Part shown: positions 8,825 through 62,659 of the stretch, piece after piece | Position numbering within the stretch: the stretch's first letter is position 1 | How the letters are laid out: each line of letters starts with the position of its first letter | Assembly: GCA_000155695.1 (NCBI GenBank) | Contig: DS990592.1 | Coordinates: 3,534,335-3,598,334 of the forward strand | Reading direction: 5' to 3' | Source: Verrucomicrobiia bacterium DG1235 | GTDB taxonomy: Bacteria; Verrucomicrobiota; Verrucomicrobiia; Opitutales; Opitutaceae | Length of the DNA: 64,000 bases | Made by a program: the position numbers and the translations under genes | The notes under the pieces: generated by a model | Told to the model about the DNA's origin: nothing | What the model saw: only the letters and a program-made list of their open reading frames with translations | The model's database searches: none

Positions 8825-10606
8825 TTATAATTTAACGACACGTCGTAGAAGAAACGCGATTCCGATCCCGGAAAGAACAAGCAAGCCAAGCCCCAATCCC
8901 ATCGTTCCATAGATCACATAACCGACCCCAAAGAGAAAGAAGTAGACTGAAAAGCTACCAACCAGAAAATTCGCTATCCCTCGCGTAATGCTCTCATTCT
9001 CGTCCGTTGGCTTCAGCTCAATTCCTTTAGAGGATAGGTCTTTCCTAACCTTCTCCCAGCCAGGACCTACCGGGCGAATTGCCAAGTAAAACCTCTTGAG
9101 AGCTTCCTGCGAACTTGGGGGAGTGAAGAATGTTACCGCCAACCAAACCACAGTTGTCACGCCAACACTTGCCAACAACTGCATGTGCCCAGGCAAAGGC
9201 TCGAAACCAAAACGCTCGTATCCAAATTCAAAAAACAGGGCGACGACGAAGGAAACGACCATGCCCGATATCTCAGTAGCCGCGTTGATTCGCCACCAAA
9301 ACCAGCGCAAGATAAAGATCAAGCCCGTGCCCGCGCCAATCGAAAGTAGAATGTTAAAACTCTGCATCGCGCTTTCTAGAAACAGAGCGACAACTCCCGC
9401 CAGCACCATGAGGACCACGGTCGATAGGCGGCCCACCGCCACAAGCTCCTTTTCGCTGGCTTCCGGCTTCATGAAACGCTTGTAGAAATCGTTCACTACG
9501 TACGAAGATCCCCAGTTCAAATGAGTCGAGATCGTCGACATAAACGCCGCAATCAATGACGCCACTACTAGTCCCAAAACGCCAGCGGGCAAAAACGCCA
9601 ACATAGCGGGATATGCAAGATCGTGCTGGATAAAATTCTTATCGATGGCAGGAAACGCCACTGCCAAGGATTCAAGATTTGGATACACGATCAGCGAAGC
9701 GAGCCCCATCAAAATCCACGGCCATGGCCGCAAGCCATAGTGCGCTAAATTAAAGAAAAAAGTCGCACCAATTGCATGGCGCTCGTTCTTCGCAGATAAC
9801 ATTCGCTGAGCAATGTATCCACCGCCGCCGGGCTCCGCACCCGGATACCATACGCTCCACCACTGCACCGCCAAGGGTACGATGAAAACGGAAACAAGCA
9901 TCGTCGTATCCGAAAAGTCAGGAAATAGATTCAGCTTTCCCGCCACATTCGGATGCGTCAGCAAAGCGTTCAATCCTCCCACCTCAGGCATGCCCACGAT
10001 CAACGACGTTGCCCAGATCGACCCCAGCATCGCGATCCCAAATTGTATGAAGTCCGTGATGAGCACCCCGCGCAAACCGCCTAGCGAGCTGTAAGCTACC
10101 GTAATCACCGACGCGATCAGCAAGGTCTCCCCCGGAGACAAGCCCAACGCCACACCTCCTAGCTTGATCGCGGCCAAACAAACGTTGGCCATAATCATCA
10201 CATTGAAAAACACCCCTAGATACAAAGCTCGGAACCCGCGCAGAAACGCAGCCGACTTTCCGCTGTAACGCAGCTCATAGAACTCCAAATCTGTAGCCGC
10301 CTTCGATCGCCGCCATAGGCGGGCGTACACGAAAACAGTCAGCATACCCGTTAGCAAAAACGCCCACCACACCCAATTTCCCGCCACGCCATTCTCGCGA
10401 ACGATTCCAGTAACAAGATTTGGCGTATCGATCGCAAACGTAGTCGCCACCATCGAGACCCCCAGCAACCACCAAGGCATGCTCCGACCGGATAGAAAAA
10501 ACTCCGATGAAGACGAACCCGCCCTCCGCGAGACCACCACGCCCACCAACAAGGATAAGGCGAAAAAGGAGACGATAATTATCCAATCAAGAGTCGTGAG
10601 GGCCAT
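8825..10606 (-). CDS. Sodium:solute symporter (SSS family), probably amino-sugar uptake
   Basis: Transporter of 593 residues with about 14 TM helices. The SSS pattern is clear: GVVVSRRAGSSSSEFFLSGR near the N-terminus, then MPWWLLGVSMVATTFAIDTP, and a central core with SSLGGLRGVLITDFIQFG. It would use the Na+ gradient to import a small solute. It sits between the GH20 hexosaminidase and the HGSNAT-like gene in a leftward operon headed by nagB, so GlcNAc, chitobiose or a related amino sugar is the likely cargo; this is inference from context. A TTTGGATAC word occurs twice in the gene (9218 and 9678). Confidence 0.88.
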   Translation of the reverse strand: MALTTLDWIIIVSFFALSLLVGVVVSRRAGSSSSEFFLSGRSMPWWLLGVSMVATTFAIDTPNLVTGIVRENGVAGNWVWWAFLLTGMLTVFVYARLWRRSKAATDLEFYELRYSGKSAAFLRGFRALYLGVFFNVMIMANVCLAAIKLGGVALGLSPGETLLIASVITVAYSSLGGLRGVLITDFIQFGIAMLGSIWATSLIVGMPEVGGLNALLTHPNVAGKLNLFPDFSDTTMLVSVFIVPLAVQWWSVWYPGAEPGGGGYIAQRMLSAKNERHAIGATFFFNLAHYGLRPWPWILMGLASLIVYPNLESLAVAFPAIDKNFIQHDLAYPAMLAFLPAGVLGLVVASLIAAFMSTISTHLNWGSSYVVNDFYKRFMKPEASEKELVAVGRLSTVVLMVLAGVVALFLESAMQSFNILLSIGAGTGLIFILRWFWWRINAATEISGMVVSFVVALFFEFGYERFGFEPLPGHMQLLASVGVTTVVWLAVTFFTPPSSQEALKRFYLAIRPVGPGWEKVRKDLSSKGIELKPTDENESITRGIANFLVGSFSVYFFLFGVGYVIYGTMGLGLGLLVLSGIGIAFLLRRVVKL

Positions 10607-10653
10607 ATGCTAGAGGAGTAAACTAAGGATATTTTAAGAGGAGAGTTTATTGG

Positions 10654-12672
10654 TTAACGCGTCAAAATTCGCTCTACCGCATCGACGACTTGTAATTCTA
10701 CTTTGGCGACAGGTTCTCGAGCTCGGGTCAAAACCGCATCCGCCTCCACCTCTTTGCCATTGAGCGAGGCCAGAGCTACTTCGCTCAATTCTTTCAGAGC
10801 CTTGGAAAGAAGCAATGCCTCACGCAAGGCCGGGGCTCCCTCCGTTATTTGCTCAAAGGCCACATGATTGTCTACCCATCGCTCCAACATCAAACGAATC
10901 GCCGCCTCATCCGCCTTGTGCTTCGTTTTCAGAAACCCATCTACCAAAGTATTAAATTTTCGAGCGTCCTTCGCATCCGCTACCGCAATATCCGGCAATA
11001 GAGTATAAGGCGAAAACGACCTATAGCTGAGATCCGAATTTCTTCGATAGATTTTCAAGGGCTCCACTACATCCGCTAGCGTTCGCAAAGCCTTCACATC
11101 ATACCCACCCACAAGGCGACGCATCATCATTTCCCTATTCCTTATATGAGTAAGACCAAGCTCTTCAAGCTGTATGGAAATCGTATCCAAACGACGATAC
11201 ATGTCCTCTACGTCGTTGATCTCTTCCGCCGACCAGAGTCGCTCCGCGATCGCAGCCGTACGCGGCCAGATTCTCGAATCTACTGTTTCGTTCGTCACAT
11301 GCTCGCTCCACATCGTGGCCTCACCACCAAACACACGCTTTCGCTGTTCCGCATCTAGTTCGATATCAGACGGCAACGGATCGACAAGGTAGTGATCGCT
11401 AGCTGGCTGCATCAGATCAATGTAATACCCGTTGGACAAAATGCTCGTATACCCATCCTTTGCCGCCGCAACCATCGCGTCGCGACCTCGCCACGAATGT
11501 ATCATAATATTCGTCGGCATATCTGGCTGAAGAATCTCGTCCCAGCCGATCATCTTTTTATCAAGCTTCGTCAGGACCTTTAGGATACGCTTGTTGAAAT
11601 GACTCTGCAGGGCATGGTTATCCGCAATCCCCCGCTCCTTCATAAACGCTTGTATATGCTCACTCGCATCCCAGTGGTGCCCTTCATTCTCGTCGCCCCC
11701 AATATGAAAATACTCATCAGGGAAAATCGCAGCCATTTCTGTAAACACAGCCTCGAGAATCTCATAAACCCGCTCATTGGTTGGATCCAAAGTCGGATCA
11801 AAAATCCCCCAGCCTCGTTCAATTTCGTAGGGTCCGGGCATGCTCGCCATTTCTGGATGTCCCACTAGCCACGCCGTCGCATGCCCCGGTACATCAAACT
11901 CTGGATACACGCGAATTCCGCGTTCCGCCGCATAAACTACGATTTCCCGCATCTGATCCTGCGTATAGAACATTCCATCAGACCCCATCTCATGGAGACG
12001 CGGAAAACTTTTTACCTCAGCTCGAAACCCTTGATCCTCCGTCAAATGCCAGTGCAAGACGTTTAGCTTCACCGCAGCCATGCCGTCTAGATTCCGCTTA
12101 ATCATATCCAGCGGCATAAAGTGGCGAGCCGAATCGATCATCAGCCCTCTCCAAGGAAATCGCGGAGCGTCATTGATTTTGGATACAGGGAAATAGTAGC
12201 CTTTGTCGTCCGCATTTAATAACTGCAGAAGAGTCTCCATCCCGTGCATCGCCCCAAGGTCGGTCGAAGCCGCTAGCCGTATTCCCTCGGCACTAATATC
12301 TAATCGATAGCTTTCATCCTCGCCGAGAACAACCTCACCCGCTCGCTCAGTCGCTATCTCCAACCCCGGCGCTTCATGCGCTTCGCCGGCTTCTACATAA
12401 TCCTGCTGCAAAAACAATCCCGTCCGACCATCCAAGCGCCGAAGGAAGCGACTCGAGGCTGACAGCAGTCGACTCGAGGCGTCAGCTCCTATTGAAATGC
12501 CAAACTCCTTTCCAACGCGAAACTCACCCTGACCGATCTTTACCTCTTGAGGCACTGGCATCAGATTTTCAAAAGCAGCTTCTGCCTCAACCACACTCGC
12601 CTGATTGAGCGGGACGAAACCCAAACCCAAAATCAAGCTGCCTAACTTTCCAAAAAAACGTGTATTTTTCAT
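10654..12672 (-). CDS. Secreted beta-N-acetylhexosaminidase (GH20)
   Basis: Enzyme of 672 residues that removes terminal beta-linked GlcNAc or GalNAc. Residues 1-30 are a signal peptide. A GH20 N-terminal domain (about 35-165) is followed by the catalytic barrel beginning at RFPWRGLMIDSARHF. HxGGDE is present as HIGGDE with Asp327 and Glu328, the substrate-assisted catalytic pair; LHWHLTEDQGFR (about 206-217) and YPEFDVPGHA (256-265) are further family motifs. The C-terminal 130 residues are helical and less conserved. The ATG overlaps the TGA of the upstream PIG-L gene by four bases, so the two are translationally coupled. It probably acts in the periplasm or at the outer membrane and feeds the symporter downstream. 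Confidence 0.95.
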   Translation of the reverse strand: MKNTRFFGKLGSLILGLGFVPLNQASVVEAEAAFENLMPVPQEVKIGQGEFRVGKEFGISIGADASSRLLSASSRFLRRLDGRTGLFLQQDYVEAGEAHEAPGLEIATERAGEVVLGEDESYRLDISAEGIRLAASTDLGAMHGMETLLQLLNADDKGYYFPVSKINDAPRFPWRGLMIDSARHFMPLDMIKRNLDGMAAVKLNVLHWHLTEDQGFRAEVKSFPRLHEMGSDGMFYTQDQMREIVVYAAERGIRVYPEFDVPGHATAWLVGHPEMASMPGPYEIERGWGIFDPTLDPTNERVYEILEAVFTEMAAIFPDEYFHIGGDENEGHHWDASEHIQAFMKERGIADNHALQSHFNKRILKVLTKLDKKMIGWDEILQPDMPTNIMIHSWRGRDAMVAAAKDGYTSILSNGYYIDLMQPASDHYLVDPLPSDIELDAEQRKRVFGGEATMWSEHVTNETVDSRIWPRTAAIAERLWSAEEINDVEDMYRRLDTISIQLEELGLTHIRNREMMMRRLVGGYDVKALRTLADVVEPLKIYRRNSDLSYRSFSPYTLLPDIAVADAKDARKFNTLVDGFLKTKHKADEAAIRLMLERWVDNHVAFEQITEGAPALREALLLSKALKELSEVALASLNGKEVEADAVLTRAREPVAKVELQVVDAVERILTR

Positions 12673-13508
12673 TGCTTATCAAATTTTTGGATACGACCTA
12701 ACGCATCCGACTTAAACCGCTCTAAATGCTCCGACAGAAAATCCTGCATGCTCACCTGTTCGCCAACAAACAGCGGACTCAAATCCATGGCGAATGTGTA
12801 TCCACTTGCTGTATCCACATTGTGAGACTGATAAAAAGTCGCGTTCGCATGCCGACGCCCTAGAGTCGCCCTCACATAGTCCTTACCCCCAGCAACTTGC
12901 GACTCGAAAACAGCCACCAAGTCCCGTGCCAAGATCGGATGCTCGTCCACTGGCAATGCGATCTTGCACTCGTCATCAAGCCAATCCAAGTCCCGCCAGA
13001 CCTCGCAACCATAGATGCGGCTCGGACGCTCCTCGGGAACTATCCGCCTCAAAGCCTCCACACAACGAGTCAACACCGCTACATGCGTATCATGCTTATC
13101 TGCGGGATTGTGCAGATAAAGAGTATGAGGACGGCACGCCCTTAAAAGGCCCTCCAATTCATCGACCAACTCCGAAGAAGATCGCGAATCCTTTATCTTG
13201 CTACTCGGCACGCCTAGCTGAGCCTGCAAGGAGTAGCCGCCCATTTCCGCCGCCCGATTCTGCTCGCGATAGCGAACCTTCTTCATTTGCTCGTCCGTGA
13301 AATCCTGATACGCTCCCACTCGAGCGCTTCCCCCGCCATCCGTTACCGTCACCCCGGCAAACCAGTTCGTCGAAGAGCCATAACAAGCGGATATGCCGTG
13401 GTAAGCGAATATCTCCAAATCATCTTGATGAGCGCCGATCGCCATATGCGTCACGCGCGACTGGGCCACCTGCAGCCTCACTCCATCGGGTACAAAATAC
13501 TTATCCAT
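12669..13508 (-). CDS. PIG-L family N-acetylglucosamine deacetylase-like protein
   Basis: Protein of 279 residues starting at MDKYFVPD, one base after the nagB stop. It has no signal peptide, so it is cytoplasmic. Zinc-binding residues of the PIG-L/LmbE family are intact: AHQDD with His27, Asp29 and Asp30 near the N-terminus, and the distal HDTH motif. These enzymes deacetylate GlcNAc-containing compounds. The operon shows no NagA, so this protein may supply the deacetylation step before NagB; that is an inference, and the phosphorylation state of its substrate is unknown. Its stop overlaps the GH20 start (ATGA). Confidence 0.85.
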   Translation of the reverse strand: MDKYFVPDGVRLQVAQSRVTHMAIGAHQDDLEIFAYHGISACYGSSTNWFAGVTVTDGGGSARVGAYQDFTDEQMKKVRYREQNRAAEMGGYSLQAQLGVPSSKIKDSRSSSELVDELEGLLRACRPHTLYLHNPADKHDTHVAVLTRCVEALRRIVPEERPSRIYGCEVWRDLDWLDDECKIALPVDEHPILARDLVAVFESQVAGGKDYVRATLGRRHANATFYQSHNVDTASGYTFAMDLSPLFVGEQVSMQDFLSEHLERFKSDALGRIQKFDKQ

Positions 13509-13509: not shown

Positions 13510-15414
13510 TTACTTTCCAGCCGAGTCCTGAGTGACATGCCAACGTACAAAACACTCGATCGCCTCGTATTCCGCAAGACCTAGCTTATCATAGAAACGC
13601 GCCGTAGCCCGGTTCCTGTCAATCGCCTGCTCCCACACCTCTCGCTGCTCCTCGTCAAGCACGGGAATTTGACTACGCTGCGAACGATGTTGGTAGATCG
13701 CCTGCGCCTTGCGCTTCACCTCGTCGGGACTACAAGGCACCGACATCTCTACTTGATGAATATCCCACTCGCGTCCATCGCTACGGTACAGCCAAACATA
13801 GCAATCCTTAATCCAGGCCTCCGATTGAAGTTTCTGTATCGCCAGTTCAAATACGGAGAAACTCTTGGCTTGCACAGAGCTCGGATCCGCAGCCTCCCCT
13901 GTCACGTACACTTGATGCGGACGCACGGATTGAAGCAAGGAACTCAACTCGGAAACGTCGTCCTCGCCCGTGACGAACCGCCGATAGCGTCCGTTTTCAT
14001 AAAAAGGCAGATCTAAAAATTGGATACGATCCGGCTCCAAGCCACAGAGCTGCAAAGCCGCGCGGGCTTCGTTTCTGCGAATGTAGCTCTTGAAGCGACG
14101 AAGCCCGACACTGTCCTCATCAAACGCGCTCTTTTCGTCTAGCTCCGCCAGCACCTGGGTCGCCAATTCGCTCCCCCCCGCTTCTCGCATCAGATCCGCC
14201 GCCCAACGAGCCTCTTCATCTGGCACGCCGAGACTGCCCGATGTCAAATACGCCACCGTTACCTCGTGCCCATGCGCAACAAGGCGACTCAACGTACCCG
14301 CCATGGCAAGCACGTCATCCTGCGGCTCCGGACTGAGCACAAGGACTCGCTTCAGCGACGGCTTTGCCCGTTCGGGCCGATAAGTATCGTCGGCATCGGG
14401 CTTCCCCCCGGGCCAGCCAGTGATCGTATGCTGCACCTCGTTAAAAACGCGGATGTTTAATCCATAAGCTGGCCCCTGCTCGGTCACTAACTCAGAAACT
14501 CCGTTCTCCTGATAATCCTTGTCAACGAGCTTAAGCAATGGCTTTCCGAGCTTGAGCGAGAGATGCGTAACCGACTTTCGAGCAAGCTCCGGCGTCCACT
14601 CGGGAAACCCAACCAGCCACGGATACTTGTTACGCGTCAGCTCGGATGCAGCCGCCGTATCCAGAAAAAATGAAACGTCCTCATGCTGCTGCAAAAAGCT
14701 CGCGGGCAAACTCTCAACCGGCGCGTCCTCGACCGCTGCTTTCACGACTTCCGCCTTGGAGCGACCCCACGCGAGCAGGTAAACCTTTCGCGCATCGAGA
14801 ATCGTTCCAACCCCCATCGTCACCGCGTAGCGTGGCACGTTGTGCTCACCCTGAAAATCGCGGGCCGCATCGAGACGCGTTAGACGATCTAGCGTCACCA
14901 GACGCGTCCGCGAAGCGGGTCCTGATCCGGGTTCGTTGAAACCGATATGCCCCGTACGCCCTATCCCCAAAATCTGGATATCGATTCCCCCAACCTCGCG
15001 AATCCTGTTTTCATAGTCCTGACAGGCCTCGAAAACCTCCTCGCGCGAAACCATACCCTCAGGGATATTGATCTGCTCCGCGGGAATATCCACATGGTCA
15101 AACAACTGCTCCCGCATGAAGCGGTGGTAGCTCTCGGGATGCCGCGCATCTATGCCAAAATACTCGTCGAGATTGAAGGTCGTCACCTTCGCGAAACTCA
15201 ATCCTTCCTTGCGATGCATCCGGATCAACTCTCGATAGAGCGGCACCGGCGTCGACCCGGTCGCAAGCCCGAGCACGAGCCCCTTACCCGCCGCCTGCCG
15301 TTCGCGAATCGCATCCGCTATCTCCCTAGCGATCTGGCAAACCGCCGCCTGGGCATCATCAAATATCCGAGAGGGAATGCGTTCGTATAACTCTTGTCCA
15401 CTTTGCTCACTCAT
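13510..15414 (-). CDS. nagB: Glucosamine-6-phosphate deaminase fused to a degenerate PIG-L domain
   Basis: Protein of 634 residues. Residues about 20-275 are the NagB isomerase/deaminase, converting glucosamine-6-phosphate to fructose-6-phosphate and ammonia: ATGSTP (51-56) binds phosphate, FNLDEYFG holds Asp83/Glu84, and GHIGFNEP holds His156. The usual NDGH is RTGH here, as I recall for the long Bacteroidetes-type NagB. Residues about 354-590 are a PIG-L/LmbE domain. Its usual PHPDDD is PEPQDD (362-367) and the distal HGTH site reads SSVQ, so the zinc ligands appear lost. This is the first gene of the leftward amino-sugar operon and is divergent from an AraC regulator. Confidence 0.93.
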   Translation of the reverse strand: MSEQSGQELYERIPSRIFDDAQAAVCQIAREIADAIRERQAAGKGLVLGLATGSTPVPLYRELIRMHRKEGLSFAKVTTFNLDEYFGIDARHPESYHRFMREQLFDHVDIPAEQINIPEGMVSREEVFEACQDYENRIREVGGIDIQILGIGRTGHIGFNEPGSGPASRTRLVTLDRLTRLDAARDFQGEHNVPRYAVTMGVGTILDARKVYLLAWGRSKAEVVKAAVEDAPVESLPASFLQQHEDVSFFLDTAAASELTRNKYPWLVGFPEWTPELARKSVTHLSLKLGKPLLKLVDKDYQENGVSELVTEQGPAYGLNIRVFNEVQHTITGWPGGKPDADDTYRPERAKPSLKRVLVLSPEPQDDVLAMAGTLSRLVAHGHEVTVAYLTSGSLGVPDEEARWAADLMREAGGSELATQVLAELDEKSAFDEDSVGLRRFKSYIRRNEARAALQLCGLEPDRIQFLDLPFYENGRYRRFVTGEDDVSELSSLLQSVRPHQVYVTGEAADPSSVQAKSFSVFELAIQKLQSEAWIKDCYVWLYRSDGREWDIHQVEMSVPCSPDEVKRKAQAIYQHRSQRSQIPVLDEEQREVWEQAIDRNRATARFYDKLGLAEYEAIECFVRWHVTQDSAGK

Positions 15415-15524: not shown

Positions 15525-16439
15525 ATGATCGACCCCTACCACGCCGCAGCCAAATCCCTCGCCAACCTCCAAATGGGTACGCCACGGGACTACTTTCACG
15601 GCCTGAAAGCCCGAAACCTTTGCCTTGCCGACAACCTCGTCGTCTTCCTGCGCACCCAAAAGCAAGACCTCCAGCGGCGAAACTTCGAAAGCCGCCCGCA
15701 CCACCGCTTCGTGCTTGTGCTCTGCTTCGAAACCGAAGGCTCGATCAATGTAGACGGCCGCATCTTCCACCTTCGTCCGGGCGACGCTTTCCTCGTCAAG
15801 CCCTACCAATTCCACTTCTACATGGAAATCGCCCGCGAAAAGATCGCTTGGCTCTTCCTCACCTTCGAGACGCGCAATGCCACCCCCTTCGAAACCTTCG
15901 CCAACACGCCCATTCCAATCAGCGAGAAGCTAAGCGCCGAGGCCGTCGAGATCGCTCGCGGCTACGCCAATCGCGAGAGCGCGGACGAGGTCACCCTCGA
16001 CATGCTCACTTTCTCAGTCTCGACCCTTCTCAACAAACTTCGAGCCTACTCCCTCAATCGCTCCCGCGAGCTCATCGCGTCCCCAAAGTACCCAACGACC
16101 GGATACGAGTTAGTTGATCGCATCAACGCCCAGCTCGACCAAAAACTCGAGGAAAACATAACCATCCTCCAAATCGCCGACGCCCTCGCCCTCTCCGAAA
16201 GCCATCTACGCAAACGCTTCAAGAGCCTGACAGGCCTAAGTCTCGGCAGCTACCTCGTACACTACAAATTGAACAGAGCCGTAAAGCTCCTCGTCCACTC
16301 CGATGCCTCACTCACTCAAATATCACTAGATTGTGGATACGATTCACTAGCCGCCTTTAGCCGTAGCTTTAAAAACCAGCTCGGCATCTCGCCATCGAGA
16401 TACCGAAAAACCGCGACCTTCGAGCGAAAACAGAGATAG
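15525..16439 (+). CDS. AraC-family transcriptional regulator of the amino-sugar operon
   Basis: Regulator of 304 residues. The N-terminal half is a cupin-like ligand-binding domain (VDGRIFHLRPGDAFLVKPYQ at about 83-102). The last 100 residues are the double helix-turn-helix: ITILQIADALALSESHLRKR forms the first and LTQISLDCGYDSLAAFSRSF the second, followed by the GISPSRYR ending typical of AraC/XylS. It is divergent from nagB across a palindrome-containing region, so it most likely controls that operon in response to an amino sugar. It converges with the TPR gene 18 bp downstream. Confidence 0.9.
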   Translation: MIDPYHAAAKSLANLQMGTPRDYFHGLKARNLCLADNLVVFLRTQKQDLQRRNFESRPHHRFVLVLCFETEGSINVDGRIFHLRPGDAFLVKPYQFHFYMEIAREKIAWLFLTFETRNATPFETFANTPIPISEKLSAEAVEIARGYANRESADEVTLDMLTFSVSTLLNKLRAYSLNRSRELIASPKYPTTGYELVDRINAQLDQKLEENITILQIADALALSESHLRKRFKSLTGLSLGSYLVHYKLNRAVKLLVHSDASLTQISLDCGYDSLAAFSRSFKNQLGISPSRYRKTATFERKQR

Positions 16440-17819: not shown

Positions 17820-17844
17820 AATATGCGTATCCAAAAATTAAGTT

Positions 17845-18510
17845 CTACAATTCCAATTTGAGCGGAAATCTCGCTCTCACTCGCGCGGGGCGACCATCCT
17901 TCGTCGGCGTCGTATACCTCAGCGATTCCAAATATTTTCTTACGTCGTCGGCCGCTATCTCATAATTGATTCGCTCAAATCGCTGAAATTCCACCCGACC
18001 TTTTTCATCGATAATAAACAGGGCTGTCACTTCGATCGCCCCGCGAATGCGACCCACCAAGTTCCGAGGCGTCACCCACTGCGGTTGCCGAATCAATCGC
18101 GGCTTTTCATCAAGCTCCGCCATGCTAAAGGTCTGAATCTCTTCGAGCGCATTTGTATCGACGTCAAAACCTCCCATGCCAAAAGCTGCTCCAAGCGCAT
18201 TGCCCGTACCGGGATTCATCGCCAACTGAAGCTGACTCAAGCTGAGAGGCTTCGGCTGGCTTTTCAGCTCGGGCGATGGCTTCTCCACCTTCTCCTCGGG
18301 AGGTGGCGGCGGCTCAGGTGGAGGCGGCGGGGGAGGAGGCAATGCCACATCGACCGTCCGCACCGTGCGTCGCTCCTTCACACTCAACAAATGCTGAGTA
18401 AAGGGCAGCACAAAAACCAACACCGCCACCAACAACACCGAATAAACGAAGATGCGGGCGAACCGGGCTGGACCGCGCTTAACGCCTTGAGACTGATAGC
18501 TTTCGTTCAT
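17845..18510 (-). CDS. tonB: TonB energy-transducing protein
   Basis: Protein of 221 residues. One TM helix lies at about 18-40, followed by a proline-rich periplasmic spacer containing long Pro runs and a Pro/Glu/Lys stretch at about 58-88. The C-terminal domain (about 140-221) has the TonB fold pattern: RGAIEVTALFIIDEKGRVEF and a late RYTTPTKDGRPARVRARFPL. It spans the periplasm and passes proton-motive energy from ExbB/ExbD to outer-membrane receptors. No TonB-dependent receptor is in the window. It lies 12 bp downstream of exbD in a six-gene operon. Confidence 0.92.
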   Translation of the reverse strand: MNESYQSQGVKRGPARFARIFVYSVLLVAVLVFVLPFTQHLLSVKERRTVRTVDVALPPPPPPPPEPPPPPEEKVEKPSPELKSQPKPLSLSQLQLAMNPGTGNALGAAFGMGGFDVDTNALEEIQTFSMAELDEKPRLIRQPQWVTPRNLVGRIRGAIEVTALFIIDEKGRVEFQRFERINYEIAADDVRKYLESLRYTTPTKDGRPARVRARFPLKLEL

Positions 18511-21988: not shown

Positions 21989-22023
21989 AAAAAAAGGACC
22001 TGCCCCAAATAGAGCAGGTCCCA
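21989..22023 (-). terminator. Rho-independent terminator of the RRM gene
   Basis: On the - strand GGACCTGC (complement of 22014-22021) pairs with GCAGGTCC (complement of 21996-22003) and is followed by a run of seven T residues. It lies 24 bp after the RRM gene stop and is a textbook terminator. Confidence 0.9.
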
Positions 22024-22046
22024 AAAATTTAAATACGATTAGCAGT

Positions 22047-48951: not shown

Positions 48952-49048
48952 AGAGTGTTCAAAGTATTCAAAAAGTGGATAGACTTCTTCGAAGACAATT
49001 AAACCAACCTTCACCCAACTCCAAAAAAACCACTCCATCAAAGAATCT

Positions 49049-51709: not shown

Positions 51710-51742
51710 TTTCTTTGTGCGTTTTCGTGGCCAAAAAACACC
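51710..51742. repeat. Short intergenic repeat, 'TTTGTG..TTCGTGG' type
   Basis: TTTCTTTGTGCGTTTTCGTG followed by GCCAAAAAACACC. The word order matches the repeats at 44.3 and 49.1 kb. Confidence 0.6.
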
Positions 51743-54684: not shown

Positions 54685-55321
54685 CGCTAAATTCCTCTTC
54701 TTGCCGCGCCATCGCATCCCAAATCAAACGGGGATCAAACGCATGCGCCGCAAACATCGTCGATATCACCACCCCCGCAAACGCCAGGCCCGCAGTGCCG
54801 CTCTCTATCTTCAACAATCCACCCAGTTGTACCAGCGAAACCAATACAGCCACCACACAAATATCTACCATCGACCAACGCCCCAATAACTCAGTCAACG
54901 CGTAAAGCTTCGTATGCTGCGGACGGCTCAAGCGATACCCGGCCGAGCTTATCCAGCACAGCCACGCCAGCGACAAGATCTTCGCGATCGGCACCATCAC
55001 GCTCGCCAAAAAGATAATCCCCGCCACCAAGTACGATCCATGAAGCCAAAGCTGCACCACCCCACCAATAATGGTGCTCTCCGTCGGCGACCCCAAATAA
55101 CTCGTCGTCATGATCGGCCAAACATTCGCCGGCACGTACAAGACCACCGCCGTAATCAGCCAAGCCACCGTCCGCTGCAAGCTATGCGGCTTGCGCTCAC
55201 GCAGCTCTGCCTCGCACACCCCACACGCATCCGCCTCGCTCACGCGTCCGCAAACCGAACACAAACGCCCGCCAAGCTCCACCGCCCGTACCGGTCTCTT
55301 CCCTTCAGCTTTCATCCTCAT
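54677..55321 (-). CDS. pqiA: PqiA domain protein (second half)
   Basis: Membrane protein of 214 residues with four TM helices. The N-terminal zinc-ribbon-like CSVCGRVSEADACGVCEAEL is followed by ITAVVLYVPANVWPIMTTSY and IAKILSLAWL, standard PqiA patterns. In E. coli the two PqiA domains are one 417-residue protein; here they are two genes overlapping by 17 bp. The start is Met1 or Met3. It overlaps pqiB by eight bases. Confidence 0.9.
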   Translation of the reverse strand: MRMKAEGKRPVRAVELGGRLCSVCGRVSEADACGVCEAELRERKPHSLQRTVAWLITAVVLYVPANVWPIMTTSYLGSPTESTIIGGVVQLWLHGSYLVAGIIFLASVMVPIAKILSLAWLCWISSAGYRLSRPQHTKLYALTELLGRWSMVDICVVAVLVSLVQLGGLLKIESGTAGLAFAGVVISTMFAAHAFDPRLIWDAMARQEEEFSDE

Positions 55322-55928
55322 AACGATGCAAGGCCGAAATCACCTGCCGCGTATCCAAACTCGAATACGCCGCCACCAGAAAAACTACGAACACCGCGAA
55401 GCCCCAAAACGAAATCCCAAACTCCACATGCGCCAAAGACGCGATCTTGATCAGACTCACCAAAGTCCCCAGCAAAAACACGTCAGCCATACACCACGGC
55501 TGCAGCCGTTCGATCAAAGCCACCACCGACTTCCAACGCAAACTCGGACGCCCGCCCAAAAACGCCAGCGACAACCCTAGCATCGAAACGCACTGCGCCG
55601 CCGGAATCGCCAAGAAAAATAGTCCCGCCAAAGCGCCCAATACAGGACGATCTTCCGCCATTCCCCAAGCCGCTCCCACCACCGTCGCGGTCGAATCCCC
55701 GCCCGCGCTACTCAGCGACAAATAGCTAAACCCCAAAGCCACGAACAAAGCCAGCAAGGCCACCACCGAAAACGACGCCACCCGATGCCACCCACCCTTG
55801 CAACGCTTAGCCAGTTCCGCTCCACAACGCGGACACTCCGCCTTCTCCCCCTCCTCCAGCTGCGGCAGCTCCACCGGCAAATCACAAAGCGGGCAAGCAG
55901 TCGTTGGAAGGTCGGGATTCGCAAGCAT
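55305..55928 (-). CDS. pqiA: PqiA domain protein (first half)
   Basis: Membrane protein of 207 residues. A zinc ribbon, CPLCDLPVELP and CPRCGAELAK, opens the protein, followed by four TM helices. SLSSAGGDSTATVVGAAWGM and LVSLIKIASLAHVEFGISFW fit PqiA domains. Together with the next gene it replaces the two-domain PqiA. It heads the pqi operon (pqiA-pqiA-pqiB-pqiC-unknown). A TTTGGATAC word (55351) is in its C-terminal Leu-Asp-Thr codons. Confidence 0.9.
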   Translation of the reverse strand: MLANPDLPTTACPLCDLPVELPQLEEGEKAECPRCGAELAKRCKGGWHRVASFSVVALLALFVALGFSYLSLSSAGGDSTATVVGAAWGMAEDRPVLGALAGLFFLAIPAAQCVSMLGLSLAFLGGRPSLRWKSVVALIERLQPWCMADVFLLGTLVSLIKIASLAHVEFGISFWGFAVFVVFLVAAYSSLDTRQVISALHRYEDES

Positions 55929-56030: not shown

Positions 56031-58001
56031 CTACTCGACCGGCCAAAGAACCACGGCTTGGTGGTCTTGATTATTCACAAGCTCAAACAGGCTCTTGACC
56101 GACTCGTAACTCTCCACGGCATAGCCCGGAGCATCTACGACCAGCTCCCGACGGCAAAGCAACTCCCTCTTATCCGCGCTCAGCTCGTAGCTGTTTTCAA
56201 ATTTTAAGGTCCCGTGATCAAATCCGCCACCCACCAGTTCATCCTCCCGCAATTCAAACCCTTCTGGCAGTGAAATCCGAATCTCGTCGAACTCAGTCCA
56301 AGGGTAGGAAAAGCTGATATCCGTCCGCCGATTCGTATTCACAAAAAGGGCACGCTCCTCTTTCTCTAGAAAATTCGGCTGAAAAACCCAGCGCTCGCCA
56401 ATCCGGTCCGCGTAGGCAGGAATACGCCCTTCAAATGTTAGTCTAATATCCGATTCCCAATCATCCACTCCCTCAACGCTTACCGAGTCCACACTCCAGC
56501 TCGGATGCTCCTCCTCCAGCCACTCCTCATACCAGCTGCCCCAAGCACTGGCCGGCAGCGTCTCCAGATTCCGCCGCGTTTTCAACGCGTCGTAGCCCGT
56601 AAGCGTAATCGTGACCTTTCCAAACAGATCCCCGCTTGCGCCCAACTCCACTACAGCCTTCCTACGCGTCACACTGCTACTCGCATCCTTGCGCTGCGTC
56701 ACCGCGAGCTCCGCTTCGCTGCTGTTCGCTAGCAAAGCCGCCGCCCCATTGTTCTCCCAGTCAAGAAATCCAAACGGCAAATGAGGGTCACTTGGATCAA
56801 AGAACCGCCAAAGCGTTTCTCCCTTAGAACGAACCGCCACCAATTCCTTTGGCACGTTGGAAATCGTCGGAAGGCGAGGATTAAACGTCAGCCAATCCCT
56901 ATCCTCGCAACGCGCCAGACGAACCTCGAATCCTGCCGCCTGCGCCAAAGCCCCAAACGCATTCAAAACGTCCCAGCTCGCCCCGTATCCACGTCTCAAG
57001 GTCTCACCGGGCGTGTCACCAAATTTCAACGACTCTCTTTGCGCGCTTGAAACGTTCGATAGCGGCGACTCGATATTTTTCAAAGTCTTTGTACAGTATT
57101 TATATATCGAATACAATCTGGCCTCATCTCCCTCAACCCCTCTCGTCAACTCTTTCGCAAGCTCTCGAACAACCTTCTGCTTGCTGCGAAACCGATCTTT
57201 GCCCTGCTCCTGCAAACGCTCGGACAAGTGCCTCCAAAACGTCTCGGGATCGAGCTCGTCCGGATTCAAATACCTCAAAAAAACCCATGGTTGCACATCA
57301 AGAGTCGCCGGAGAGCTTTCTTCATCCAATCGCTGCGGCACGTTTCGAGCCGTCACTAGATAAGTGGGCCCCTCGATAGCCTCCAGCTCGTACTCCCAGT
57401 TAAAGCCAACTGTGGTCGAATGACTGAGATGGCTCGGCTTCAGCTCAACCTTCAATTCCCGTATCGGCCAATCATCAGCAACCATCAAAGTCATCGGCGC
57501 CAAAACCCAGCGTTTGGACACTTCCGTATGCCCATACTCGATCACGCTGCCGACTCTCAATTGCGGCAAGCCAAAGGCCTTCGTCTTCACCTTGAGTCCC
57601 CTCCTATTCAGCGCCACGTCCTCGTACCAGTCAGCCTCCCCCAGCTCGTAAACCGAGCCGTCCGGGTTCGTCACCCTCGCCGCAAATCCTTTAGGCTTCG
57701 AATTCCTTAAAGCATAATAGATCCGAACCATCCCCAGTTTCCGAAGCGCCGATTCCTTGTAGACCTTTATGCGCTTATAGAGATGGATCTCCCTCAAATC
57801 CTGAGCATACCGATCGCTCATCAAAAACTGACTAAAGAGTATCTCCGCCTCGGCCTCCGGATCCATCTGCCCTTCCCTCAGATCCAGCTCGGCCCTGTCC
57901 CATTCAGGCCAATCCTCTATCGCCGCATAGGACTCCAGACCAGTCACCGCCATCGCGGCCAGTAGAAAGCACCTCACAAAAAGAAGAATCCCTATTCTCA
58001 C
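56031..58001 (-). CDS. DUF3857/transglutaminase-like protein lacking the catalytic Cys
   Basis: Protein of 656 residues with a signal peptide (ILLFVRCFLLAAMAVTGLES). A DUF3857 domain lies at about 50-220 (LPQLRVGSVIEYGHTEVS), then a transglutaminase-like core at about 275-370, then a beta-rich C-terminal part. In the core, where these proteins show GDCKD, this one has GASWD (340-344), so Ser342 replaces the catalytic Cys. It is probably a non-enzymatic periplasmic protein. It is monocistronic; the 101-bp gap to pqiA has no clear terminator. Confidence 0.82.
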   Translation of the reverse strand: MRIGILLFVRCFLLAAMAVTGLESYAAIEDWPEWDRAELDLREGQMDPEAEAEILFSQFLMSDRYAQDLREIHLYKRIKVYKESALRKLGMVRIYYALRNSKPKGFAARVTNPDGSVYELGEADWYEDVALNRRGLKVKTKAFGLPQLRVGSVIEYGHTEVSKRWVLAPMTLMVADDWPIRELKVELKPSHLSHSTTVGFNWEYELEAIEGPTYLVTARNVPQRLDEESSPATLDVQPWVFLRYLNPDELDPETFWRHLSERLQEQGKDRFRSKQKVVRELAKELTRGVEGDEARLYSIYKYCTKTLKNIESPLSNVSSAQRESLKFGDTPGETLRRGYGASWDVLNAFGALAQAAGFEVRLARCEDRDWLTFNPRLPTISNVPKELVAVRSKGETLWRFFDPSDPHLPFGFLDWENNGAAALLANSSEAELAVTQRKDASSSVTRRKAVVELGASGDLFGKVTITLTGYDALKTRRNLETLPASAWGSWYEEWLEEEHPSWSVDSVSVEGVDDWESDIRLTFEGRIPAYADRIGERWVFQPNFLEKEERALFVNTNRRTDISFSYPWTEFDEIRISLPEGFELREDELVGGGFDHGTLKFENSYELSADKRELLCRRELVVDAPGYAVESYESVKSLFELVNNQDHQAVVLWPVE

Positions 58002-58246: not shown

Positions 58247-59542
58247 ATGCCTCCCCCTAAGCCTACACTCATTCTCGCTCTTATCACCTCTACTCTAGCA
58301 GCTCTAATCATCTCCTGCGCTCCCCAAAAAACCGACGAACGCACCCGCCTCGTCGATCCAAGCAGAGTCGACGCCGCACTCGCGTCTCTCGTCAACGACC
58401 ACGGCCTCGTCGGAGTCTCCGCACTCGTCTACGAAAAAGGAGAAGAAGTCTACTTCGGTGCTCACGGCCTCGCCGAACGCGAGGCAAACCGCCCCATGCA
58501 GCGCGACACGCTCGCCTACATCTACTCCATGACCAAGCCCATCACCGGAGTCGCCCTCATGACCCTCTACGAGCAAGGCTCCTTCAAGCTAGACGATCCC
58601 CTCTCTAAATACGCCCCCGAATTCGCCAACCTAATAGTGTATTCAGGAAATGACGACAACGGAAACCCAATCTACGAAGCCCCTCTCCGCGCCCCGACCA
58701 TCCGCGACGTCACCCGCCACACCGCAGGCTTCAGCCGCGGAGACTCTCCAGACAGCCCCTTAACCAAAGCCTACCAAGCCGCAGACCCCGCCAACTTCAA
58801 CAACACCCTCACCGAATTCGCCGAAAAGCTAGGACGCGTCCCCCTCGGCTACCAGCCGGGCACCCGCTGGCTCTACGGCGACTCCGTCGACGTGCAAGCC
58901 TTCCTCGTCGAACGCATCAGCGGACAACCCTTCGACCAATACCTCCAAGAGCACATCTTCGACCCACTGGGCATGAGCGAAACGCGCTACTACTTCGGCC
59001 CGGAATACGACGATCGCCGCACCCGCATCTACGTCCGGGAAGACGATGGCAGCTTCGCCCTCGAAGACGAAGACCCCATAGCCTTCAACAAAGAGCCTCG
59101 CCCCTTCACCCCGGGCGGATACGGCTTCATCTCCACCGTCGATGACTACATGCGCTTCGCCCGCATGCTCCTCAACGAAGGCGAGCTGAACGGAAAACGT
59201 ATCCTAAAATCGGATACCATTCGCCTCATGGCGACCAATACCCTGCCCGCTACCCTTACCGACAGTATCTGGCTCCCCAGTAAAGGACAAGTCGGCTTCG
59301 GCATCGACTTCGCCGTGCGTATCGCCTCACCCGCCACTCCCGAAGAAAACTCCGGCGAAATCGGAGAGTTCTTCTGGGACGGACGAGCCAGCACCCTCTT
59401 CTGGGTCGACCCCGAAAACGATATCGCCGCCGTTCTCTTCACCCAAATGATGCCCTTCAACACTTTGCCTGTTCACAAAAATTTTCGCGACGCCATCTAC
59501 TACGATGATCCATCCGCCGCCGCCCCACGCCTCGCCAAGTAA
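58247..59542 (+). CDS. Serine hydrolase lipoprotein (class C beta-lactamase family)
   Basis: Protein of 431 residues. A lipobox-like IISC (Cys24) ends a hydrophobic segment. The active-site SxxK is SMTK (Ser94, Lys97) in AYIYSMTKPITG, and YGDSVD supplies the Tyr of the YxN-like motif. The third motif is WDGRAST near the end in place of KTG. Members act as esterases, peptidases or transesterases rather than true resistance enzymes. The substrate is unknown; a polysaccharide-related role is possible because carbohydrate genes follow. Confidence 0.88.
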   Translation: MPPPKPTLILALITSTLAALIISCAPQKTDERTRLVDPSRVDAALASLVNDHGLVGVSALVYEKGEEVYFGAHGLAEREANRPMQRDTLAYIYSMTKPITGVALMTLYEQGSFKLDDPLSKYAPEFANLIVYSGNDDNGNPIYEAPLRAPTIRDVTRHTAGFSRGDSPDSPLTKAYQAADPANFNNTLTEFAEKLGRVPLGYQPGTRWLYGDSVDVQAFLVERISGQPFDQYLQEHIFDPLGMSETRYYFGPEYDDRRTRIYVREDDGSFALEDEDPIAFNKEPRPFTPGGYGFISTVDDYMRFARMLLNEGELNGKRILKSDTIRLMATNTLPATLTDSIWLPSKGQVGFGIDFAVRIASPATPEENSGEIGEFFWDGRASTLFWVDPENDIAAVLFTQMMPFNTLPVHKNFRDAIYYDDPSAAAPRLAK

Positions 59543-59567: not shown

Positions 59568-61463
59568 ATGATACCAAAACGACTCATCACCCTTCTCGCT
59601 CTAGCAAGCCTACTATTCTCCTCCGCTTCAGCCGCCACTCAACTGCAGTCCGGAGAAGCACACATATGGGACATGCAAGAAATCATTTTGTATTCTCAAG
59701 GTGAATACGAAAATCCCTACGCCGAAGTCGACTGCTGGATCGACCTCGAAGGACCCGACTTTTCTAAGCGAGTCTACGGGTTCTGGGACGGAGGATCCGT
59801 ATTCAAAATCCGTTTCGTCGCCAACACGCCGGGCAAATGGACCTGGACCGTCGGCTCAAACCAAGCCAATGACGCCGGCATCAGTCAAGGAGCCGGCTCG
59901 CTCGTTGCCGTCGCATGGGACGCGGAAGACATCGCCGCAAACGCGAATCGCCGAGGCTTCATCCAAAACACCCCCAACGGTCGCGCCCTCCAATACGCAG
60001 ACGGCACCCCTTTCTTCCTCACCGGCGACACCTGGCTCGCCGCCTCCACCTGGCGCCTTCCCTTCAAAGGCGCCCGCGCCTCCGAAACTTACGTCCCCGA
60101 TTCCGGAATCAGCTTCGAAGAAGCCGTATCCTACCGCAAACAACAGGGCTTCAACTCAGTCAGCTTCGTCGCCGCCTTCCCTAACTGGGACGCCGATCAA
60201 TACGGCGCCACCTACGCAAACAGCGACGGCGTCTTCATCCGCAACGCTTGGGAAAAGTTCGGCCATTGGGCAGCCAGCGCCACTATCAGCACCGCCGACG
60301 GAGCCACCACCACCGCCAAAGACATGCACGACGAAAAGGGAAATCGCCCCTTCGCAATCGTTGCCGACCAAGAAGGCCTCCCCGACTTCGACCGCCTCAA
60401 TCCGGCCTACTTCCAAAGCCTCGATAAAAAAATGCGCCACCTCTCCGATCAAGGTTTCGTCCCCTTCCTCGAGACCGTACGCCGCGACTGCGCCCCCGCT
60501 TGGAAAGCCTACCACAACTTCGACGAAAGCTACTCTCGCTTCGTCCAGTATCTCATTTCTCGATACGGAGCATACAACATGGTCTTCAGCGGCATCCATC
60601 TAGACTGGATCCCCGAAAACTTCAGCCTAACCGAAGGCGAGTTCAACCAAGCCCTTATCCACCACCACCGAAAATACGGCCCTCTCCCCTTTGGCCAGCC
60701 CTACACCACACTTATCGACAGCTCCACCTACCGCCGCTTCGGGCATGGAGAGGACTGCCCATGGCTTACCATGCACACTGTCGGCAACAAACCGCGCAAC
60801 CACGCCATCTACGCCTCGCTCGAAGAAATCTTCCAGCTAGAAAATCCCTACCCAGCCGCCAACCTCGAGCCCTACTACACCGGCTGGAATCATGACATCA
60901 ACCGCCCCGGCGGCGAAACGCCCACGCCAAACTCTCCACGTGACAACTACTTCGCCCGAGCCCAGATGTACGGCTCGTTCCTCTCCGGCGGCCTCGCCGG
61001 CCACGTCCACGGCACCGCCGCCTACGACATCACCTCGACTGGCGAGCCCGCCGGCTGGCGCCCCCATTTCTGGACCGCCCTCAACTATAAATCCGGATCC
61101 CAAATGCAGCACCTTCAAGCCTTCGCCCTCTCTGAAGGCAGCGACTACCAAAAGCTCCTCCTCGCCTCCGATCAACTCTCGCCACGCAAGGCTCCCGACG
61201 CCATCGACGACGGCCTAGACGGCTGGTCCTTCATGATGCGCGACACAGACAAAAGCCTCGCCCTCCTCTACTTCGAAATCGGAGCCGCCCAAGCCACCAT
61301 CCAAGGCCTCAGCCCCAAATCCACCTATCAGTGGATCTGGTACAATCCACGAAATGGCGAATGGCACAAACCCTCCAAAATCAAAGCCGACGCAAACGGG
61401 CAGCTCAAGTGCCCCCCCTTCCCGAAAGACGGAGACTGGGCAGCGAAACTTATCAAAATCTAA
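59568..61463 (+). CDS. Secreted DUF5060/DUF4038 (GH140-like) glycoside hydrolase
   Basis: Protein of 631 residues starting at MIPKRLITLL, with a signal peptide to about residue 23. An N-terminal DUF5060 beta-sandwich (about 30-120) has GVYGFWDGG-like and GKWTWTVGSN patterns. A DUF4038-type barrel (about 135-530) has PFFLTGDTWLAAS and GFNSVSFVAAFPNWDADQYG. A C-terminal putative collagen-binding-like domain ends the protein (about 540-631, with DTDKSLALLYFEIG). Related GH140 enzymes cleave apiose linkages in plant pectin; the target here is not fixed by sequence. It begins 25 bp after the serine hydrolase and may share its operon. Confidence 0.87.
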   Translation: MIPKRLITLLALASLLFSSASAATQLQSGEAHIWDMQEIILYSQGEYENPYAEVDCWIDLEGPDFSKRVYGFWDGGSVFKIRFVANTPGKWTWTVGSNQANDAGISQGAGSLVAVAWDAEDIAANANRRGFIQNTPNGRALQYADGTPFFLTGDTWLAASTWRLPFKGARASETYVPDSGISFEEAVSYRKQQGFNSVSFVAAFPNWDADQYGATYANSDGVFIRNAWEKFGHWAASATISTADGATTTAKDMHDEKGNRPFAIVADQEGLPDFDRLNPAYFQSLDKKMRHLSDQGFVPFLETVRRDCAPAWKAYHNFDESYSRFVQYLISRYGAYNMVFSGIHLDWIPENFSLTEGEFNQALIHHHRKYGPLPFGQPYTTLIDSSTYRRFGHGEDCPWLTMHTVGNKPRNHAIYASLEEIFQLENPYPAANLEPYYTGWNHDINRPGGETPTPNSPRDNYFARAQMYGSFLSGGLAGHVHGTAAYDITSTGEPAGWRPHFWTALNYKSGSQMQHLQAFALSEGSDYQKLLLASDQLSPRKAPDAIDDGLDGWSFMMRDTDKSLALLYFEIGAAQATIQGLSPKSTYQWIWYNPRNGEWHKPSKIKADANGQLKCPPFPKDGDWAAKLIKI

Positions 61464-61489
61464 ATTCTAACAAACCACGCACGCCCCCC

Positions 61490-62659
61490 ATGCGCCACCT
61501 CGCCACCCTCCTTTGCCTCCTCTCCGCGCCGGTCCTCTGCCACGCCCAGTTCTTCGACAACTTCGACGGTCCCGAAATCAACGGCTGGTTCACCATGACC
61601 GGCGACGGCTGGGCTGAGATGAAACTCGTTCCGCACGATGGTTACGCCCGCCTTGAGGTGGACGCCACTAAAGATCCGTTCAACGTCTGGTGGGCCATCG
61701 TGAAACAAGATGTATCCAAATATCTAGACATGGAGAAGCTCAAGGACCCCGCCTACGAGCTTCGCGTTGAAATGCGCATTCGCCCCAGCATCGGGCCAAG
61801 GCGATTCAACGTCATGATCAACACCCAAAGAACCACCGACTACCACAAGCAGCTTCGCGAATACGACATCGCCGATACCACTGAGTGGCACACCCTCAGC
61901 ATGACCACGCAAGACCTCGACGCCCTGCCAGGCGACGAACTAAACGTGCAATTCGGAATCACCGACTGGGGCCACGACCAATATTACGTAGACATAGACC
62001 ATTACAAAGCGGACATCGTCAGAGTGGATACCAGCGCGCCCGACCTTGGCGAACCCCTTATCTACCACCCAGAAACGCCAAAGCTGAAGAGCTTCTCCCA
62101 ACACCTTCCCGCTTCCCACGACGCCTTGATCAACGCCGACTTCCCAAAAGTAAACTTTCACCACTGGACAAGCGGCAAGTCGCGAGTCCTAACCGTCAGC
62201 TCTCGCCAGTGGCCCATCCTAAGATGGGACTTTGAATCCGACACGCAAACGCAAGCCACCGGACCCGGCGTGCTAGAACTGACAACCCACTCCATCGCAA
62301 AAGGAGGAAACTACATTGCGCCGTTCGGCGAAGATCTAGGAGTCGAATTTGGCAAGATTCGTATCATAGAAGTATTCGAAGGCGACCCCGCATGGGATCA
62401 ATCAACCGTGACCTATCGAAGCTTCACTCAAGGCGCCGACATCGAGACCCTCATAAACAGCCAAATGATTTTCGACACCGCACTCGCCGAAAAGGACGGA
62501 GACAAAACCTACATCACCCTCTCTCGCCCCGTCATGCAGCGCCTCCTCGACGGCACCACCAAAGGCCTCATCATCCGCCCCCTCGGCGCCATTGAAGCCT
62601 CCATCTACGATTCCGAAGACTCAAACAGCGCCAACGCCCCGACACTTCACTTTAACTAG
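61490..62659 (+). CDS. Secreted protein with DNRLRE-like C-terminal domain
   Basis: Protein of 389 residues with a signal peptide (MRHLATLLCLLSAPVLCHAQ). Residues about 22-180 look like a laminin-G/concanavalin-type beta-sandwich (FFDNFDGPEINGWFTM). Residues about 215-389 show the DNRLRE-like pattern LRWDFESD and IRIIEVFEGDPAWDQSTVTY with a late LSRPVMQRLL. No catalytic motif. It follows the GH140-like gene by 26 bp and probably helps bind or sense a polysaccharide. The family assignment is tentative. Confidence 0.72.
   Translation: MRHLATLLCLLSAPVLCHAQFFDNFDGPEINGWFTMTGDGWAEMKLVPHDGYARLEVDATKDPFNVWWAIVKQDVSKYLDMEKLKDPAYELRVEMRIRPSIGPRRFNVMINTQRTTDYHKQLREYDIADTTEWHTLSMTTQDLDALPGDELNVQFGITDWGHDQYYVDIDHYKADIVRVDTSAPDLGEPLIYHPETPKLKSFSQHLPASHDALINADFPKVNFHHWTSGKSRVLTVSSRQWPILRWDFESDTQTQATGPGVLELTTHSIAKGGNYIAPFGEDLGVEFGKIRIIEVFEGDPAWDQSTVTYRSFTQGADIETLINSQMIFDTALAEKDGDKTYITLSRPVMQRLLDGTTKGLIIRPLGAIEASIYDSEDSNSANAPTLHFN

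Follow-up and report, generated by a model that had tools for sequence, protein, structure and literature searches.

What does a nine-base word stand for that turns up again and again in a bacterial chromosome, in genes of quite different kinds? The question is raised by a 64-kb stretch of the genome of Verrucomicrobiia bacterium DG1235 (contig DS990592.1, positions 3,534,335 to 3,598,334; hereafter the window, meaning the whole stretch), in which an initial annotation had noticed an excess of TTTGGATAC and considered it a possible Chi-like or uptake sequence. The excess is real: the window holds 13 exact copies, 4 on the forward and 9 on the reverse strand, the outermost lying where they had been reported, against a mean of 0.24 and a maximum of 2 in 100 dinucleotide shuffles, and against an order-2 Markov model (0.71 expected) the word is the top 9-mer of the window. 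A purine follows it in 13 of 13 copies and A/T precedes it in 10 of 13. Across the genome there are 551 copies (286 + 265), compared with 21 (9 + 12) for the word read backwards; the mean of one per 10.5 kb rises to one per 4.9 kb in the window, about twofold denser, and the density falls, as had been proposed, in the range of Chi and of DNA uptake sequences (DUS). Seven of the 13 window copies encode Leu-Asp-Thr and others read FGYE, VYPN or VSKI; protein sequence alone is insufficient to explain what is a DNA-level signal spread genome-wide. One copy (17827) falls at a gene start, and two, at 12686 and 61712, fall outside the genes called by our simple in-house gene finder, which is cruder than an annotation. 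The earlier interpretation is thus partly supported. What it missed is that TTTGGATAC is only a half-site, whose inverted counterpart lies exactly 5 bases away.

The whole signal is a 21-bp site, degenerate and of two-fold symmetry, YGTATYCRAAWTTYGRATACR, of which TTTGGATAC is the right arm. It emerged from an 864-kb sample made up of the window and 40 stretches of 20 kb at even intervals, in which the cores TGGATAC (421 versus 122 expected from an order-3 model) and TGAATAC (228 versus 86) are enriched, overall TGRATAC followed by a purine. When these cores are aligned, a second arm begins 12 bases upstream. GTATYCA-N5-TGRATAC occurs at 36 sites with 13 of 14 matches and at 168 with 12 of 14; at 10 of the 11 other arm spacings the counts are 0-2 and 5-17, and spacing 4 gives 8 and 30. 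In the refined palindrome the arms are about 16 bp apart, the GTA/TAC positions reach 0.78-0.90, the centre is A/T-rich and the ends are sharp, with at most 0.02 bits past +/-10. Half-site matrices tell the same story: inverted at spacer 5 they find 618 pairs versus 89 +/- 19, spacer 4 is weak (138), and the scan gave no non-overlapping direct or everted arrangement above background. Overlapping placements (spacers -2 and -3) were over-represented whatever the arrangement of the three, reaching 324 versus 173 +/- 49, an excess that we take as self-overlap of the half matrix. A matrix-free dyad scan ranked GTAT-N11-ATAC first (99 versus 5.6), and a minor 20-bp variant exists beside the 21-bp form.

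The dyad accounts for the word. Seven of the 13 window copies lie inside 21-bp dyads, four inside 20-bp variants (score at least 10) and two beside a weak partner arm; among 84 sampled copies, 60 belong to dyads, 11 face a weak partner and 13 stand alone. Since an order-3 model predicts about 11 such words in 800 kb, the excess of the word is explained by the dyad. The sites of the window are given below, scored in bits of a position weight matrix (PWM) or, for the 20-bp variants, as a half-site sum; no strand is assigned to the dyads, and fractions give the aligned congeners in which a site is kept.

815..835, 21-bp dyad, PWM 16.3
2415..2435, 21-bp dyad, PWM 15.5
2784..2804, 21-bp dyad, PWM 14.7
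4706..4726, 21-bp dyad, PWM 14.8
9217..9237, 21-bp dyad with TTTGGATAC at 9218, PWM 13.9
9667..9687, 21-bp dyad with TTTGGATAC at 9678, PWM 17.1
11182..11201, 20-bp dyad variant with TTTGGATAC at 11183, half-site sum 17.7
12168..12187, 20-bp dyad variant with TTTGGATAC at 12178, half-site sum 16.6
12675..12695, 21-bp dyad with TTTGGATAC at 12686, PWM 17.9
13835..13855, 21-bp dyad, PWM 15.1
14008..14028, 21-bp dyad, PWM 14.3
16087..16107, 21-bp dyad, PWM 15.1
16321..16341, 21-bp dyad, PWM 12.9
17324..17344, 21-bp dyad, PWM 14.7
17826..17846, 21-bp dyad with TTTGGATAC at 17827, PWM 14.4
18724..18744, 21-bp dyad, PWM 13.5
18992..19000, reverse strand, TTTGGATAC with weak second arm, PWM 8.2
19574..19594, 21-bp dyad, PWM 13.8
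22017..22037, 21-bp dyad, PWM 14.1
23156..23176, 21-bp dyad, PWM 12.7
23339..23359, 21-bp dyad, PWM 17.5
25279..25299, 21-bp dyad, PWM 15.5
26225..26245, 21-bp dyad, PWM 18.5
26916..26936, 21-bp dyad, PWM 19.1
27281..27301, 21-bp dyad, PWM 12.1
28390..28410, 21-bp dyad, PWM 13.9
29904..29924, 21-bp dyad, kept in 2/2, PWM 17.2
36066..36086, 21-bp dyad, kept in 4/4, PWM 16.4
36402..36422, 21-bp dyad, kept in 4/4, PWM 16.3
38787..38807, 21-bp dyad within radD, kept in 2/3 and in L049, PWM 17.3
39709..39729, 21-bp dyad, kept in 4/5, PWM 13.9
40215..40235, 21-bp dyad, kept in 4/5, PWM 13.2
42890..42910, 21-bp dyad, kept in 3/5, PWM 13.6
44648..44668, weaker 21-bp dyad with TTTGGATAC at 44659, PWM 10.8
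45025..45045, 21-bp dyad, kept in 6/6 aligned congener stretches, PWM 16.2
45271..45291, 21-bp dyad, kept in 0/6 aligned congener stretches, PWM 15.3
46890..46910, 21-bp dyad, kept in 0/2, PWM 14.3
48963..48983, 21-bp dyad, PWM 16.4
49204..49224, 21-bp dyad, PWM 12.9
49524..49544, 21-bp dyad with TTTGGATAC at 49525, PWM 13.3
50047..50067, 21-bp dyad, PWM 15.3
51272..51292, 21-bp dyad, PWM 15.3
52818..52838, 21-bp dyad, PWM 12.9
53293..53313, 21-bp dyad with TTTGGATAC at 53294, PWM 13.3
53402..53410, reverse strand, TTTGGATAC with weak second arm, PWM 7.6
54828..54848, 21-bp dyad, PWM 12.4
55350..55369, 20-bp dyad variant with TTTGGATAC at 55351, half-site sum 22.2
57095..57115, 21-bp dyad, PWM 19.5
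58638..58658, 21-bp dyad, PWM 16.1
59198..59218, 21-bp dyad, PWM 19.3
59689..59709, 21-bp dyad, PWM 17.9
60547..60567, 21-bp dyad, PWM 15.9
61711..61730, 20-bp dyad variant with TTTGGATAC at 61712, half-site sum 14.7

How are such arms read? A complementary change in the opposite arm accompanies only 100 of 1418 arm variants, and paired-variant counts are at or under expectation for 9 of 10 position pairs. The arms do not covary and are therefore read as duplex DNA, which rules out an RNA hairpin or terminator. A dispersed repeat or mobile element is likewise ruled out, as homology ends with the motif. What is present, inverted half-sites at a fixed spacing with arms that vary independently, is the arrangement expected of a protein-binding dyad, and together with the A/T-rich centre we infer from it the signature of a homodimeric DNA-binding protein.

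The dyad is far from a peculiarity of the window. The whole genome (5.78 Mb) contains 1151 dyads at up to 2 mismatches versus 16 for a reversed control. Within 1.18 Mb of it, including 16 stretches picked on purpose and not at random (ribosomal, origin, terminus, small contigs), 1137 sites reach PWM >= 9 versus 219 simulated and 733 reach PWM >= 12 versus 42; extrapolation suggests about 4,500 and 3,400 true dyads per genome, respectively, and the sampled chromosome carries roughly one per kb, within and between genes. Training of the matrix and its enrichment counts drew on one and the same 864 kb; the reversed-control genome counts, the matrix-free scan, the other genera and permuted matrices are checks independent of that training. 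Enrichment over the order-3 model climbs with score and reaches a plateau of about 50-80-fold above 16 bits (bins from cumulative counts, with chance counts of about 1 or fewer in each bin above 16 bits), as expected if the benefit of a site saturates. The exact consensus dyad is absent from the genome. An arm shuffle predicts 39 exact copies, a number inflated by conditioning on the score threshold, and the enrichment plateau predicts only about 6 by our estimate, so that an upper limit on site affinity is no more than suggested.

Placement of the dyads, with genes and frames called by an in-house dicodon script, is indifferent to genes: 506 of 579 are coding (87.4%, with 87.7% of the sequence coding), the coding ones divide 183/164/159 among the codon phases, and the stronger arm shows a preference neither for the G-rich strand (292:272) nor for gene direction (259:226). 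Somewhat fewer dyads fall in the first 300 bp of long genes. Close pairs are rare below about 200 bp (10 versus 32.6 expected at 100-150 bp, in our genome and congener stretches at PWM >= 11), and beyond that distance spacing is near random. Stretches on the origin and terminus sides are unremarkable, with 3-16 dyads per 20 kb. A strong GC skew flips sign near 3.81 Mb and 0.8 Mb of contig C6, and by this switch the replication origin likely lies about 0.2 Mb from the window.

Are individual sites maintained? The window was compared with relatives from the genus Pelagicoccus at 76% nucleotide identity, after removal of overlapping DNA (L051/L127, L086/L123). Dyads still score PWM >= 12 in 38 of 56 site-alignments, which reuse the same 20 distinct window sites against several relatives, compared with 10 of 95 for permuted matrices. 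Inside the outer arms, 119 of 153 synonymous third positions agree (0.78), versus 0.585 outside (P = 8e-7 by rows, 2e-6 averaged by window position). Several sites with at least two changed bases held or raised their score, as expected if the signal and not its exact letters is maintained. The dyad within radD (38787..38807) is under threshold in L052, L053, L060, L063 and L090. For the RadD helicase gene itself (37548-39284) 44 related loci were found, which outside the Verrucomicrobiota-type ones and one from Pontiellaceae are mostly of Bdellovibrio type with up to 77% identity, a distribution that suggests an old lateral transfer.

One set of genes is free of full sites. The two longest dyad-free stretches of the sampled genome are 2681265-2695594 (14.3 kb), with rpoA, secY and the genes for ribosomal proteins S5, L5, S3, L2, L4 and L3 (10 proteins scanned), and 2710124-2725592 (15.5 kb), with rpoC and rpoB, its genes being identified over all but the final 7.5 kb. 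The 13.4 kb between rpoA and L3 have 0 dyads at PWM >= 12 versus 8.3 expected, and in rpoCB (8.0 kb) 0 versus 4.9, so that the ribosomal-protein and rpoBC genes together have 0 versus 13 in a test, planned beforehand, of genes expected to be highly expressed. Two low-GC stretches are also dyad-poor, with 2 per 20 kb in L190 and 3 per 20 kb in L195 (GC 0.495 and 0.475). By a gene scan of site-poor stretches (10 of 23 listed open reading frames), L190 (3 of 9 frames) encodes a cytidylyltransferase, a CBM96 and an FrhB protein, and L195 (3 of 8) two glycosyltransferases and a methyltransferase. The equally site-poor L191 carries ordinary genes (lpxC/fabZ-like); therefore not every site-poor stretch is an island.

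In relatives, counted as above with up to 2 mismatches and a reversed control in 120 genomes of the family, the dyad is anything but uniform. Five members drawn from the own genus have 592-1202 dyads each (reversed controls 3-19), and the richest other genera are g14 (1042), g13 (1008) and g48 (748), whereas g2, g16, g18, g25, g27, g30, g37 and g40 have at most 11 per genome. Matrices refined in g14, g20 and g6 recovered the same dyad; that of g3 strayed into A/T-rich sequence, and g46 offered only 9 sites. In a count over 240 genomes, the remaining families of the order lie anywhere between background and moderate richness (at most 190 versus 19 reversed); beyond the order most genomes stay under 60, as a rule slightly above their reversed control, and a few have more (family f22: 143 and 153 versus 22 and 18). 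In motif-poor G010 and G055, a dyad scan of 220 kb each gave no comparable replacement, and 11 loci read at the sites of three motif-poor genomes (L167-L181) showed no regulon-like pattern.

Exact palindromes make up 2 of 4783 sites (up to 2 mismatches) in the five members of the own genus, and 23 of the 120 family genomes have at least one. They are common in genus g3 (G009, G057, G085, G107), at 33 of 615, where several share spacer letters across species. Some exact-palindrome loci look by eye like insertion-sequence neighbourhoods, and the translations of 10 of 20 such loci (L093-L112) showed no shared gene. A different iterated palindrome, GTTTCCAA-N3-TTGGAAAC, recurs among the matches listed in f18, a further family within the phylum (G183, G133, G229).

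What, then, could maintain the dyads? The reading that we favour, tentatively, takes them as moderate-affinity sites of a putative homodimeric protein that acts as an architectural factor along the whole chromosome. It draws on the fixed spacing and independent arms, the placement regardless of gene and frame, the conservation down to synonymous positions, the short-range exclusion and the absence from ribosomal-protein and rpoBC genes. A homodimer that reads each arm with a separate domain would bind roughly 4,500 places per chromosome and, as a nucleoid-associated factor, might serve in compaction, bridging or loop anchoring. Each dyad would confer a small benefit once its affinity crosses a threshold; dyads would be purged where the bound protein obstructs RNA polymerase, and they would build up slowly in newly acquired DNA. 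Broader, and held with more reserve, is the possibility that an architectural code is written into Opitutales chromosomes. Thousands of 21-bp dyads, each under selection and tuned in affinity (in Pelagicoccus some one to the kilobase), would serve a sequence-specific homodimer that organises the whole chromosome; such a code would bend synonymous codon choice genome-wide, leave ribosomal operons free and be losable within a genus.

Several observations weigh against an architectural protein. This analysis found no dyad-binding protein, and binding is deduced from sequence. Dyad counts are independent of origin and terminus, so that nothing like a domain structure can be seen. Genomes of one genus may differ by loss of the motif (384 versus 17 dyads in g4; 478, 130, 15 and 4 in g15), an unusual trait in a core architectural protein. 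Among congeners 18 of 56 site-alignments are lost, and 4 of 20 window sites, including 45271 (0/6), are kept in no aligned congener. rpoCB does hold three weaker dyads (PWM 10-12) and its neighbour fusA two full ones, and the constrained codons of highly expressed genes could exclude sites without any protein. Finally, the most codon-atypical genes are not poorer in sites (0.69/kb versus 0.57/kb), which weakens the step of slow accumulation.

Among the alternatives, a DNA uptake signal survives best, and we consider it unlikely. Here a competence receptor would prefer dyad-bearing DNA, and biased uptake with recombination would fill the genome by transformation drive. A density near one per kb lies in the range of the DUS of Neisseriaceae and the uptake signal sequences (USS) of Pasteurellaceae, and short-range mutual exclusion, conserved positions among congeners and patchy gain and loss between relatives all fit such words; the own genome also has comEC. 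Unlike them, the dyad is palindromic and non-directional. Exact copies are described as the most over-represented form of uptake words in the available part of one study (PMC1939737), whereas the exact consensus is missing from this genome and next to missing from its genus, and where the accessible text of another (PMC2346458) has 47-70% of uptake words coding versus 84-89% of the genome in five Pasteurellaceae genomes, the dyads show no intergenic shift. Nor does the motif track comEC, which occurs in 105 of 120 family genomes, motif-rich or motif-poor (G010, G055 and G076 included); no comEC turned up in G105, which bears the motif (196 sites, 97% complete). In addition, neither of the two motif-poor genomes scanned offered an alternative dyad. 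These points leave the initial annotation's uptake proposal unsupported.

Rather improbable, too, is that the dyads serve a promiscuous but otherwise ordinary transcription factor as operators. A dyad of this kind does resemble bacterial repressor operators, among them that of HipB, TATCC-N8-GGATA, whose arms are nearly identical to ours with a spacing of N8 in place of N7. Operators would be expected to favour promoters, yet the dyads are as coding as the genome, about equal in codon phase, and depleted rather than enriched in the first 300 bp of genes. hipA is present in 86 of 120 family genomes and, like comEC, does not track the motif: HipA_C was not found in motif-rich G058, G063, G054 and G048, on which ground regulation by HipBA was rejected.

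More doubtful again is a by-product of the kind proposed for highly iterated palindrome 1 (HIP1) of cyanobacteria, in which sites would arise or persist through DNA modification or strand-directed repair and not through binding of a structural protein. HIP1 is found in genes and gaps alike, and it is an exact, GC-rich 8-mer that holds methyltransferase sites and is linked to orphan methyltransferases. HIP1 (GCGATCGC) is also palindromic, near one per kb and low or nearly absent in some relatives, and about 1 kb has been proposed, in the context of HIP1, as the range of mismatch repair (Elhai, PMC4390886, as far as its accessible text goes). The dyad, in contrast, is a degenerate, bipartite 21-bp site with an A/T-rich centre, in another phylum, with no invariant word and with exact copies rare.

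A polar recombination or segregation word is very improbable. Chi, the FtsK-orienting polar sequences (KOPS) and the architecture imparting sequences (AIMS) are directional and over-represented in coding DNA genome-wide, and the dyad shares their density range and their over-representation in coding DNA. Of 71 sampled copies of TTTGGATAC, the G-rich strand carries 52; the T+G content of the word alone, however, predicts about the same skew (an estimated 69% or so), and the full dyad has no polarity, which leaves the Chi-like proposal unsupported. The idea that codon or protein usage produces the signal, or that it is a dispersed repeat, is refuted, despite the 7 of 13 window copies that read Leu-Asp-Thr, by the 1151 dyads versus 16 reversed, the near-equal frames, the non-coding copies and the lack of shared flanks past +/-10.

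DUS/USS, Chi/KOPS and HIP1 thus each fail at least one of the defining features tested. Sites of known chromosome-binding proteins offer a further comparison: those of Fis, Lrp, SlmA, Noc and MatP are palindromic like the dyad, and those of Fis and Lrp share its A/T-rich centre. SlmA, Noc and MatP sites are few and confined to domains, unlike the chromosome-wide dyads, and for Fis or Lrp we know of no conservation of single sites by the thousand within coding DNA. Among the titles listed from the open-licence literature none bore on the 9-mer; uptake sequences in Verrucomicrobia led to one review and over-represented palindromes in Opitutaceae to one genome paper, and we found no paper there on the nucleoid in Pelagicoccus or on nucleoid-associated proteins in Opitutus.

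To our knowledge, few bacterial systems maintain one DNA signal at thousands of positions, and DUS, Chi, KOPS and GATC/HIP1 each opened a field. The symmetric 21-bp signal matches none of these. It is visible at silent codon positions, missing from ribosomal-protein and rpoBC genes, and abundant in some close relatives while others stand near background, and this natural contrast, together with the gene-class absence and the silent-site signal, makes the search for a reader protein a direct experiment. Should the reader prove architectural, sequence-specific folding of a bacterial genome along the whole chromosome would become directly testable.

Some features of the window and genome lie apart from the dyads. 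Short dispersed repeats at 44264-44355, 49049-49168 and 51679-51739 of the window have many imperfect copies elsewhere in this genome, and some further copies lie in congeners. Repeats of the TAGTGAGTAGTGAG type are found in the own genome (L009-L048), where the 12-mer CACTACTCACTA occurs 23 times in 800 kb versus 0.02 expected. Between 7627 and 15414, genes with NagX-like, sodium/solute symporter and NagB-like products and one with a weak match to beta-N-acetylglucosaminidase form what, judged by these similarities, is likely a cluster for amino-sugar use.

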